A stretch of DNA of 46,413 nucleotides, taken from Pseudomonadota bacterium. GTDB lineage: Bacteria > Pseudomonadota > Gammaproteobacteria > Steroidobacterales > SZUA-146. The position numbers were made by a program, and so were the translations under genes. The notes below the pieces were generated by a model. The model was not told the DNA's origin and searched no databases. It worked only from the letters and a program-made list of their open reading frames with translations. The DNA is taken from positions 1 to 46,413 of the forward strand of contig JBCCHD010000031.1 of assembly GCA_039028935.1 (NCBI GenBank), in the 5' to 3' direction. Below are positions 16,263-21,391 of this stretch, piece by piece (the first letter of the stretch is position 1; each line of letters opens with the position of its first letter).

Positions 16263-18344
<2,082 letters not shown>

Positions 18345-18392: not shown

Positions 18393-19205
18393 ATGGGCTT
18401 GAAGCGTGAAATAGTCTCGGTAAAGGCTTGCTATATGATGATTCAACCAGTGATAAAGATTCTATTGAAACTTGGAGTATCCTTCAAAACATTTACTTCA
18501 ATCGCGCAAAAAGTATATATCGACTGTGTGCTTGATGATGAAAACAATAAAGTTAGTGTTTCTGCAATTGCTGCAATGACGGGAATATCAAGAAAGAAGG
18601 TCGGAGACTTTATCGATATAGAAACGAGCGATCTATCAGAGCCGACGGACAAACTAGCAGTAGCGGTTGTAATTGACAACTGGTGGGAGCATCTCGATGA
18701 AAAAGGCGAGCCGTTACATTTGCCGATTGTTTCTGAGAGTGGTCTTGATGTAAAGACACTAATAGCAGGTGCAAAAGTTGATCTTCCATTCTCTACGGTT
18801 GTTAAATTAATAAAAAAATCGGAGCAGATTGAGATCGATGATAAAGGGTTCTTCTACCCTATCTCTCGAGAGAATGTCGATGCGCAGAAAACGACTAGTG
18901 GATCAATATTAGACTGCGCTGCTAGCGTTCATGGATATGCCGATACAATTTACAAAAATTTGTTTCCAGAGTGTTCGGAAAGAAAAGACAAGCTTTTTGA
19001 AAGAAGGGCGCGTGTTCCTCATATGTCTAAAGAAGAGTTCGCAAAATTCCAGTCTTTCTGCACCTTAAAACTTCCAGAGCTTGTTATTCAGTTTAACGAG
19101 TGGCTAGACGAAAACGTTGGGGACTGTAAGATCTCTGCCTCGCCCAATCAGGGATTCACCGGCGTGGGGATTTATGCATTCGACTATACTGAAATTAGAA
19201 TCTAA
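18393..19205 (+). CDS. DUF6502-family protein, first copy
   Basis: This 270-residue protein has no known function. It matches the layout I recall for the DUF6502 family: an N-terminal helix with PVIKILLKLGVSFKTF, then VYIDCV, a short helix-turn-helix-like stretch (SVSAIAAMTGISRKKV, about 53-69), a middle part that sets up a WWEH segment, and an end like GVGIYAFD. The fold suggests DNA binding, which is an inference. The start ATG has GGGG about eight bases upstream. The gene is visibly A+T-richer than ligA: one 60-base line (18481-18540) has 22 G+C. It is convergent to a second DUF6502 gene and a repeat protein, sharing a terminator with them. Confidence 0.7.
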   Translation: MGLKREIVSVKACYMMIQPVIKILLKLGVSFKTFTSIAQKVYIDCVLDDENNKVSVSAIAAMTGISRKKVGDFIDIETSDLSEPTDKLAVAVVIDNWWEHLDEKGEPLHLPIVSESGLDVKTLIAGAKVDLPFSTVVKLIKKSEQIEIDDKGFFYPISRENVDAQKTTSGSILDCAASVHGYADTIYKNLFPECSERKDKLFERRARVPHMSKEEFAKFQSFCTLKLPELVIQFNEWLDENVGDCKISASPNQGFTGVGIYAFDYTEIRI

Positions 19206-19295: not shown

Positions 19296-19853
19296 CTATC
19301 TATCAACCAGCCCGCTTCCTCCGCTCAAGCTGCGGATGCCAGAGCCGCCGCTCATGCTTTGCGTTCCGCTTCCGCCGCTCATACTGGCTATGCCAGAGCC
19401 GCCGCTTAGGCTATTAATCCCGGAACCACCACTTATTCGATCAACGCCAGACCCACCTGACAAGCTCAAGACTCCAGAACCACCGCTCAAGCTTTCGATT
19501 CCGCTGCCACCACTCAGGCTTGTAACCCCTGAGCCACCGCTGAGGCTCTTGACTCCAGAACCTGAACTTAGTGCTTTTACGCCAGATCCTCCGCTCAGGC
19601 TTTTGGTGCCTGAACCTGCGCTCAAGGCTTTTACGCCTGAACCTCCACTGAGACTTCTTACACCAGATCCAGAACTTAGAGCCAATACGCCGGTGTCACC
19701 TGAAATAGCTTTCAGCTGATGTCCAGATACTGCCGCTCCGGAAACTCGATTTTGTACAGCACCAACCTGGCTAGAAGTTGGGTCAGCTGCGTTAGTAGTG
19801 ACTATCAGCCCTACAGAAAGAACACTTAATAGATACTTCGCTTTTAAATACAT
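19296..19853 (-). CDS. Secreted nonapeptide-repeat protein, RTX-like without calcium Asp
   Basis: The function is unknown. Residues 1 to about 23 form a Sec-type signal peptide (basic start, hydrophobic core, TTNA-ADP cleavage-like site). From residue 43 to the end the protein is almost wholly a nine-residue repeat of consensus G-G-S-G-V-x-S-L-S, with about 14 full units, one more degenerate unit at the front and a partial last unit. The spacing and the glycine and large-hydrophobic positions match the RTX nonapeptide (GGxGxDxUx), but position 6 is Lys, Arg, Thr, Leu, Glu or other, and is Asp in only one unit. Calcium binding in the classic way is therefore unlikely. The repeats reach the last residues, leaving no C-terminal type I secretion signal. 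It begins 33 bases after the minus-strand DUF6502 gene with a GGGGG ribosome-binding site, so the two look like an operon. Confidence 0.75.
   Translation of the reverse strand: MYLKAKYLLSVLSVGLIVTTNAADPTSSQVGAVQNRVSGAAVSGHQLKAISGDTGVLALSSGSGVRSLSGGSGVKALSAGSGTKSLSGGSGVKALSSGSGVKSLSGGSGVTSLSGGSGIESLSGGSGVLSLSGGSGVDRISGGSGINSLSGGSGIASMSGGSGTQSMSGGSGIRSLSGGSGLVDR
19299..19700 (-). repeat. 27-base coding tandem repeat
   Basis: This DNA encodes residues 52-185 of the repeat protein. Units of 27 bases vary at third positions and at the residue 4 and 6 codons, so the amino acid pattern is kept better than the bases. This points to selection on protein rather than to recent slippage alone. Confidence 0.85.
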
Positions 19854-19886: not shown

Positions 19887-20804
19887 CTATTCCTTTTCGA
19901 TGTACATGTAGACTTCGACGCCAACCTTAATTTCGGCTTTGTTTTGTTCGTCTAGGTCAACACCCTCATTTGCGGTTAAAAACTGTTCAATCGTTTCAAT
20001 AAAGCGCTGACCCTTGTCTCTCATCAGCAAATTGAAATCGTCTAGAACTTTTGTATTAACCCCGATTTCTGTAAATACGTTTCTTTCGAACCTTTTAGGT
20101 TCATTGGTTGTTTCACTCATAAGGTTGTGATCCAGAGTCTCGGCAAGGCTTCCAATAATGGTTGCCAAGCGAGCCACAAATTGCGGATCTAGCCTCGATG
20201 TAACGTGCGTCCTTGTAAGTGCTCTTAAAGTCTTGTCTGGCAGTTCTTCAACAGCCTCAGACCTTAAAAGCTCGTCCAGCATCGCTCGCGGGGACATGTC
20301 CCCGCTGTAGCGCCTTACCAATTCCGAAAAGCTCGGCGTTTTTCCCTGCGGACTATCGAAATAGAGCTCGTGGGGCAGTCCATAAGGTCCCGTGAACTCC
20401 GGATCAACATGCCAACCGTTTAGAACCCGCATAACGCGGTTGGGGTCTCCGCTTGAATTTTGTTCGCCTGATTCGAGCCTCTCTAACTGCCGCTTAACTT
20501 CCTTCCGCGTCAGTCCTGTCAAAATCGCAATCCGCGTACCCGATGGATTGCGTCCGTCGATGGGGAAATCGTCATGAGCGATTTCCACAAAAACGCCCTT
20601 TAATTCATCTGCGAACTCGTCAAATGAAATTCCGTTTCTGATAAGGATCCGAACTAGCGGTCCCATGAAGCGACGATATGCCGCTAGCAGTCCCTGTTTT
20701 ACGTCCGCATCGTTTGATTCTGTCTGGCTGTTCGTGGCCAATTTTCTTGTTTTTTCCGAATGCGTCGTTGAATTCACATAATAGTAATGGGAAATATATC
20801 CCAT
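19887..20804 (-). CDS. DUF6502-family protein, second copy
   Basis: A protein of 305 residues from the ATG at 20804. It has the fuller DUF6502 pattern: FMGPLVRILIRNGISFDEF, VFVEIA, a helix-turn-helix-like SGTRIAILTGLTRKEVKRQ segment, GWHVDPEF, SFSELVRRYSGDM, MLDELLRSEAVEEL and a C-terminal VGVEVYMYIE. A DNA-binding regulator is a reasonable guess but is not established. The start is uncertain. A predicted promoter has its -10 box at 20793-20798, downstream of this ATG, which would make an in-frame GTG at 20777 the start (296 residues). No good Shine-Dalgarno supports either. The repeat-protein gene follows 33 bases downstream on the same strand. Confidence 0.75.
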   Translation of the reverse strand: MGYISHYYYVNSTTHSEKTRKLATNSQTESNDADVKQGLLAAYRRFMGPLVRILIRNGISFDEFADELKGVFVEIAHDDFPIDGRNPSGTRIAILTGLTRKEVKRQLERLESGEQNSSGDPNRVMRVLNGWHVDPEFTGPYGLPHELYFDSPQGKTPSFSELVRRYSGDMSPRAMLDELLRSEAVEELPDKTLRALTRTHVTSRLDPQFVARLATIIGSLAETLDHNLMSETTNEPKRFERNVFTEIGVNTKVLDDFNLLMRDKGQRFIETIEQFLTANEGVDLDEQNKAEIKVGVEVYMYIEKE

Positions 20805-20834
20805 TGATAAATAACGTCAAGGGATAAATTTCCC
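20789..20834 (-). promoter_or_regulatory. Promoter with two 14-bp inverted-repeat operators
   Basis: GGGAAATATATCCC (20789-20802) and GGGATAAATTTCCC (20821-20834) are near-perfect palindromes and are near reverse complements of each other. Their starts are 32 bases apart, close to three helical turns. On the minus strand TTGACG (complement 20815-20820) lies between them and TATATT (complement 20793-20798) lies inside the nearer one, with a 16-base spacer. This is the arrangement of an autoregulated promoter. That the DUF6502 product binds here is an inference. Confidence 0.6.
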
Positions 20835-21161
20835 TACCCGATATTTAAGCTAACGAGTTATTCGTAAATGGCCGTGAAATATGGGGAATCCGGATGCGAA
20901 CTGTCCCCAAAAATGGGCCGGAGATTTCAGCATTATGGGGTAACTATGTCAAATTTAAATTAGTAACAATCGTTAGTGCGTTGATTGGAAACGTAATTAA
21001 AATTCGTTTAACACTGCGTTGGATTATGTTACGCGGTGTGGAACCGAAAGAGGATTAGGACTAACCCTTATTTGGTTAATCGTTTCTGAAGAATTGCAAC
21101 GATCGCAAGATAAGAATGGTTCGCACCCGAATTTAGGGTATTTACACGCAATGTGCGCAAA

Positions 21162-21189
21162 TAAAAAAAGCCGGCATCCTTGCCGGCTT
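21162..21189 (-). terminator. Rho-independent terminator, minus strand
   Basis: AAGCCGGC (21168-21175) pairs with GCCGGCTT (21182-21189) around a six-base loop. On the minus strand it is followed by a run of seven T residues. It ends leftward transcripts from the parvulin gene or from the small RNA candidate. Confidence 0.85.
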
Positions 21190-21310
21190 GAGTTCGCCTC
21201 ATCGTTTGGGGGATTCTGAGGTTTATGAGCCTGTCTGGGTACAAAGAGCAGGCTCAGGTGTATTTATACGCAACCTTGCCTTAACCCTCTGTGAACCAGT
21301 TCACGAATCC
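21162..21310 (-). ncRNA. Candidate structured small RNA or 3' UTR
   Basis: Read on the minus strand, this stretch carries the palindrome GTGAAC-TG-GTTCAC (21291-21304), a hairpin with perfect 8-base arms (TGAGCCTG 21226-21233 with CAGGCTCA 21249-21256, loop 15) and a terminator. It could be a small RNA of about 150 bases started near 21310, or the 3' end of the parvulin transcript. A possible -35 (TTGATA, complement 21336-21341) exists but the spacing to a -10 box is poor. I do not recognise a known RNA family. Confidence 0.35.
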
Positions 21311-21391
21311 TCAAATGATATAATTACTCTTTAAGTATCAATTACTTATGGGCAGTAAAAATTTCACTATCCCAGGGTTTATACGGGCTTT

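Follow-up and report, generated by a model that had tools for sequence, protein, structure and literature searches.

A candidate operator over the promoter of a DUF6502 operon that recurs at DUF5666 promoters

Two inverted repeats of the form GGGA-N6-TCCC frame the promoter of a DUF6502 gene in a Steroidobacterales bacterium, and the one that overlaps the −10 element recurs before DUF6502 genes of other genomes and before genes of one partner family, DUF5666. In 143 genomes drawn from the class, the promoter pattern containing this repeat was confined to genomes with a DUF6502 match. We consider it quite likely that positions 20789–20834 are the operator–promoter of the DUF6502 operon, at which the DUF6502 protein would repress itself and its partner. 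The window referred to below is the whole stretch of DNA analysed, 46,413 nucleotides of contig JBCCHD010000031.1 (assembly GCA_039028935.1).

The DUF6502 gene and its neighbours

The open frame of 305 residues that includes the gene matches the PF20112 (DUF6502) profile with 143.1 bits (cut-off 27) over residues 39–305, and this is the sole Pfam match of the protein, even at E up to 10. The second gene of the probable operon (Table 1) encodes a protein with an N-terminal hydrophobic stretch, judged by eye, and many Gly-Ser-Gly repeats. Similar repeat proteins are encoded downstream of DUF6502 at five of the 13 other palindrome-bearing loci (L005, L007, L011, L012, and L035), and several contigs stop within or near the repeat gene. 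An assignment of the repeat protein as RTX was rejected: its NCBIfam scores reach 41.7 bits at most, where the cut-off is 1000, and are taken as glycine-repeat noise. A Pfam profile search of the same protein gave no DUF5666 match.

The distant second DUF6502 gene of the window directly follows a gene at 16308–18344 that is ligA-like by eye. The neighbourhood of a ligA-like gene and a second DUF6502 gene is the same at locus L034. A third DUF6502 gene of the window genome lies on another contig (G000:C14), and no DUF6502 relatives were confirmed in viral contigs. A set of 14 control genomes, which included E. coli, gave no DUF6502 match.

Table 1. Features of the DUF6502 locus, in window coordinates.
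Feature	Position	Strand	Details
DUF6502 gene	19887..20741	−	Start TTG 20741 preferred, 284 aa; alternative starts GTG 20777 (296 aa) and ATG 20804 of the open frame (305 aa)
Gly-Ser-Gly repeat gene	19296..19853	−	185 aa; second gene of the probable operon, 33 nt past the DUF6502 stop
Second, distant DUF6502 gene	18393..19205	+	45.4 bits; convergent with the operon
Candidate operator 1	20789..20802		GGGAAATATATCCC, coding strand GGGATATATTTCCC; 6-bp centre is the −10 element
Candidate operator 2	20821..20834		GGGATAAATTTCCC; directly upstream of the −35
−35 hexamer TTGACG	20815..20820	−	Between both palindromes
−10 hexamer TATATT	20793..20798	−	Centre of operator 1
TTATGT box	20776..20781	−	Second recurring element of DUF6502 upstream regions

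Architecture of the promoter region

A sequence-only reading of this DNA had described two 14-base palindromes lying 32 bases apart, with a −35 element between them and a −10 element within one. This arrangement is present as described, with the refinements that 32 nt is the start-to-start distance (about three helical turns, with a gap of 18 nt) and that both palindromes are imperfect, pairing at 6/7 and 5/7 positions around perfect GGGA/TCCC outer arms. The sequence of one 14-mer and the reverse complement of its partner agree at 13 of 14 positions, and the order on the minus strand is GGGAAATTTATCCC, TTGACG, 12 nt, and GGGATATATTTCCC. The two promoter hexamers are separated by a spacer of 16 and agree with the consensus at 10 of 12 positions. 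Across the whole window, GGGA-N6-TCCC is present at these two sites only. Dinucleotide shuffling of the window produced a comparably good pair of palindromes in 1 of 200 cases, and shuffling of the intergenic region 20742–21391 did so in 5 of 5000, under a criterion fixed post hoc, with the pair already seen, as a stricter criterion in an earlier version of the test missed the real pair.

Another element recurs in these upstream regions. The box TTATGT/ACATAA occurs 26 times in the last 150 nt upstream of 49 DUF6502 genes (mean 5.1 and maximum 11 in 300 single-base shuffles), and in several genes it is found just ahead of the −35 or adjoining the start codon. Further upstream in the window, a terminator-like hairpin on the minus strand (21168–21189) lies behind a PpiC-type gene.

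Conservation among genomes of the order

In 396 genomes of the order there are 12 occurrences of the exact 16-mer TGGGATATATTTCCCA and 0 of its reversed control. Six of the 12 occurrences, in the window and in G009, G017, G022, G030, and G041, are directly before a DUF6502 gene. Another three are at contig ends just past the promoter, where the upstream genes resemble those of the window (PpiC-like in G001; septation-protein- and BolA-like by eye in G032 and G043). The final three, all from a single genus of family f10 (L107, L108, and L109), precede an FlhC-like gene, and these three genomes also carry DUF6502 genes. Against PF05280, the FlhC-like protein of G117 reaches 21.2 bits, under the cut-off of 27. 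FlhC itself was rejected as the binder: of the 12 operator-bearing genomes, 6 have PF05280, and the three f16 genomes all lack it.

The five relatives with the site before DUF6502 carry the identical 14-mer GGGATATATTTCCC in the same orientation as the window. Their DUF6502 proteins are 41–47% identical to that of the window over most of the length in four cases and 57% identical over a 105-residue piece in G017. Among the loci retrieved, only G001 (L089), which belongs to the same genus, also has operator 2, with the 32-nt spacing kept. A suggested search for the pair upstream of other DUF6502 genes thus had a divided outcome, as the −10 palindrome recurs widely and the upstream one only in G001. 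For the promoter-overlapping palindrome, conservation in relatives, the absence of which had been named as a refutation, was observed, and this palindrome travels with DUF6502 genes.

Comparison with G001 shows 82% identity over the 67 nt round the promoter (20769–20835); in the rest, up to 21153, blastn aligned one 50-nt block only. That block is a second conserved intergenic segment at 20905–20953 (TTGACATA ... CATAATGCTGAAAT), 78% identical over 50 nt. G002, also of this genus, lacks both the 16-mer and a close DUF6502 protein (best 31%).

Degenerate patterns extend this picture to different degrees. Across the 12 genomes selected by the 16-mer, GGGA-W6-TCCC has 18 sites and its reversed control 2. 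The looser TTGAC-N12-14-GGGA-N6-TCCC, whose spacing was adopted after 14–18 missed the window's own site, was found at 33 places in 147 genomes, a number that alone says little given 28 for the reversed control. Of these places, 18 are directly before DUF6502 (including G053 and G128:C95, at loci L006/L038 and L133), 4 are cut off by the contig end before any gene, 10 are without DUF6502, and 1 was not fetched. Of 32 tabulated sites, 30 have TTGAC 12–14 nt ahead of GGGA. Most of the sites came from a pattern containing TTGAC, which largely predetermines the GGGA, TCCC, and TTGAC columns of the base table. The window genome has two further TGGGA-N6-TCCCA sites, at G000:C9:93954-93969 and G000:C22:55996-56011 (L056 and L057), which directly precede a PAS-GGDEF-EAL gene and a TPR gene, respectively.

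Enrichment of the palindrome upstream of DUF6502 genes

All 3,328 four-base palindromes (256 arms with 13 spacers) were counted over 150 nt of upstream DNA for DUF6502 genes that had been retrieved by similarity only. These loci, L001–L055, comprise 49 DUF6502 genes from order genomes and two named MAG contigs, with duplicates merged. GGGA-N6-TCCC precedes 14 of the 49 genes (mean of the 256 N6 motifs, 0.21), three of the 14 being near-identical genes of one genus, and TGGG-N8-CCCA, the same palindrome one base wider, precedes 15; these are the two commonest of all motifs tested. The site is found before 12 of 28 genes scoring at least 300 bits versus 2 of 21 with lower scores. The class draw gave 29 genes with enough upstream DNA, the window's own gene left out, and here both forms precede 12 of 29 (mean 0.18), and TGGGA-N6-TCCCA 10. 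An inverted repeat over the gene's own promoter is thus recurrent among DUF6502 genes, and most of the genes examined are without it, since the site is absent within 150 nt in 35 of 49 and 17 of 29, respectively. The similarity-fetched count is used in place of the count over all loci (23/72), which is biased, some loci having been fetched by pattern.

Genes with the palindrome group together in a DUF6502 tree of 66 rows, where 6 changes account for their distribution compared with a shuffled mean of 16.7 and 0 of 500 shuffles as low; 7 of the 19 palindrome-bearing rows entered the tree through pattern matches.

Co-occurrence with DUF6502 and DUF5666 in the class

DUF6502 matches are present in 37 of the 143 genomes of the class draw. 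TTGAC-N12-14-GGGA-N6-TCCCA was found in 13 of these 37 genomes and in 0 of the 106 without a match (hypergeometric P 3.7e-9); the reversed control had 5 matches in 5 genomes, 3 of them with DUF6502. Seven of the 18 sites are before DUF6502 (G000, G415, G437, G455, G461, G474, and G525), and another seven are before DUF5666 genes (G415, G439, G455, G474, G483, G520, and G525), whose products score 92–199 bits to PF18914 (cut-off 27). The remaining four include L179, a GC-rich sequence with no DUF6502 or DUF5666 gene behind it, L188, where a small gene with a signal-like start follows two palindromes, and L187 and L196, which were not assigned to either family.

DUF5666 lipoprotein genes adjoin DUF6502 in several genomes. 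The DUF5666 sites of G415, G439, and G474 are distant from the listed DUF6502 gene, either on a separate contig or some 1 Mb off, which suggests a diffusible factor acting in trans; the G439 case is weaker because its DUF6502 match is split over two frames. Recurrence of the motif before DUF6502 and one partner family suggests that the DUF6502 gene most likely encodes a DNA-binding protein controlling both. The DUF5666 proteins have lipoprotein-like starts and look exported, judged by eye, which makes DUF6502 the natural binder of the two families. These observations point to DUF6502 as a trans-acting DNA-binding repressor of its own operon and of DUF5666 genes; that it binds the site, and in which direction it exerts control, we infer. 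The autoregulated promoter suggested by the sequence-only reading is consistent with the conserved site that travels with DUF6502, but autoregulation by itself is probably too narrow a description, as the DUF5666 genes have the site in common.

Paired sites also occur at G439 and G456 (29 nt) and at G483 (26 nt). In these pairs the second site is downstream of the promoter copy, whereas in the window it is upstream.

Start codon of the DUF6502 gene

The ATG at 20804 had been suspected of lying upstream of the transcription start, with the GTG at 20777 as the real start behind a very short leader. The first suspicion holds: this ATG is within the promoter, and it was rejected as the start, with no conserved start at that position in relatives. 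The second is not favoured. In G017, G030, and G041, which have the identical operator, in-frame stops lie 26–28 nt past the operator and each gene has one candidate start, GTG or TTG, 32–37 nt past it. TTG 20741, 47 nt past the operator, fits these relatives; G009 has a TTG at 36 nt with no intervening stop. We therefore lean towards TTG 20741 as the start codon.

Starts closer to the site also exist. G022, again with the identical operator, has an ATG only 3 nt past it, 12 further genes from the order or from MAGs have an ATG 19–24 nt past the site, and three f9 genes have an ATG at 67 nt with earlier alternatives present. Among the class-draw genes with the site, 9 of 12 have an in-frame ATG 3–5 nt past it. 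Transcription begins 6–8 nt past the −10, so that these mRNAs would be nearly leaderless. Since very short leaders appear real in the family, GTG 20777 is a reasonable but less probable candidate. It lies 11 nt past the palindrome, would give a short leader, and would add 12 residues without counterparts. G001 retains TGTGAATTCA at this position, but its contig ends just past the promoter.

Predicted fold and comparison with known regulators

The most likely reading of DUF6502 is a DNA-binding regulator that would contain two helix-turn-helix units. The AlphaFold2 model, made from five sequences, is weak, with a mean pLDDT of 57 (59–75 for residues 41–90 and 73–85 for 101–170). It has helix-turn-helix-like units at residues 36–93 and 98–180, which align with DeoR-, IclR-, and MarR-type domains at Z 5.5–6.3. 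The structural matches cover many regulators from Z 5.5 up, the best at 7.4 where the tool advises caution below 8, and Foldseek with the model gave no match at E < 0.001. Among 58 DUF6502 members, 12 had weak HTH_29 matches at E up to 10 (best 0.0031). No solved relatives were found by sequence, and a profile of the 58 members against PDB chains gave, at E up to 10, three weak unrelated rows and no HetR.

Autorepressed helix-turn-helix regulators with an operator over the −10 are a general type. The present locus is like them in its inverted repeat over its own promoter, its few sites per genome, and a regulator beside its target. It differs in that the model has two helix-turn-helix-like units and the protein has no assigned function or ligand. 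DUF5666 (PF18914) genes have the operator in common with DUF6502; the window's own partner is instead the Gly-Ser-Gly repeat protein.

Alternative explanations

The strongest alternative, though an unlikely one, is that another co-occurring regulator, for example of the NarL/FixJ type, binds the palindrome, and DUF6502 and DUF5666 are merely its targets. The consensus GGGACTTNNGNCCCT of the NarL/FixJ-type response regulator DosR, as given in an excerpt of PMC6448022, fits the outer arms, and the sites GGGATTAAAGTCCC and GGGACTATAGTCCC of relatives come near it; the occurrence of sites before GGDEF/EAL, TPR, and FlhC-like genes also speaks for it. Against this, the promoter pattern was absent from all genomes of the class draw lacking a DUF6502 match, and 9 of the 12 genomes selected by the 16-mer have the AT-centred form (GGGA-W6-TCCC) at a single site, a distribution unlike that of a global regulon. 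The DosR box, in that excerpt, has the GGGA-N6-TCCC outer layout in common with the window's two sites but other inner bases, since both sites are without CTT/AAG inner arms. Pfam, moreover, detects neither a GerE-type helix-turn-helix nor a receiver domain in the window protein.

It is improbable that DUF6502 binds the site to activate its own operon. G009 and G022 retain the palindrome with no TTGAC at the usual distance, as if the repeat were required for activity. The site, however, covers the −10 itself, and dimers bound over a −10 usually block the polymerase.

Structures of HetR, a protein of DBD-flap-hood fold, bound to palindromic DNA took the highest structural ranks (VIA ranks 1–4, Z 7.2–7.4, below the caution level of 8; Foldseek rank 1, E 0.09). 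The HetR of heterocyst-forming cyanobacteria is similar in length to DUF6502. As a dimer it recognises a palindrome whose arms are GGGG/CCCC, and hetR is suggested to be autoregulated, according to an excerpt of PMC4649674. The arm spacing of that palindrome differs, and homology found no support in sequence: hhalign gave a probability of 0.4% against one HetR sequence, and the DUF6502 profile matched no HetR among PDB chains. With top structural ranks but no sequence-profile relation, HetR is only a lead. PatS carries RGSGR, and the partner of DUF6502 at L035 reads GLKGSGVRGLKGSGVRG. By analogy, a HetR–PatS-like pair, in which a HetR-shaped, self-controlling DUF6502 would be set by Gly-Ser-Gly peptides cut from the operon's exported repeat protein, can be imagined, though we regard it as very unlikely.

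That only a core promoter is conserved, with GGGA/TCCC arms due to chance or structure, is hardly credible: the centre is indeed −10-like, TTGAC is −35-like, and promoter-like matches alone are near chance level (2 found versus 1.5 expected in the examined stretch), but the arms stand out among the palindromes compared, the arm-containing 16-mer recurs in the order where its reversed control does not, and in G001 the arms are unchanged though the DNA between both sites has diverged.

Proposed mechanism and significance

Repression by DUF6502 could operate as follows. A DUF6502 dimer would bind GGGA-N6-TCCC centred on the −10 and block RNA polymerase, thereby limiting its own synthesis and that of the downstream Gly-Ser-Gly repeat protein. 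In the genus of the window, the second site lies three turns upstream on the same helical face and may allow cooperative binding round the −35. In other families GGGA-N6-TCCC is also present at the promoters of DUF5666 lipoprotein genes, which suggests a regulon made up of DUF6502 and a cell-envelope partner.

Searches of a literature library for ‘DUF6502’ and for the string GGGATATATTTCCC found no paper, and PF20112 and PF18914 are both, by name, families of unknown function. The operator that they have in common suggests a likely role for DUF6502, as a transcription factor, and a likely regulator for DUF5666, and it supplies the exact DNA with which DUF6502 can be tested.
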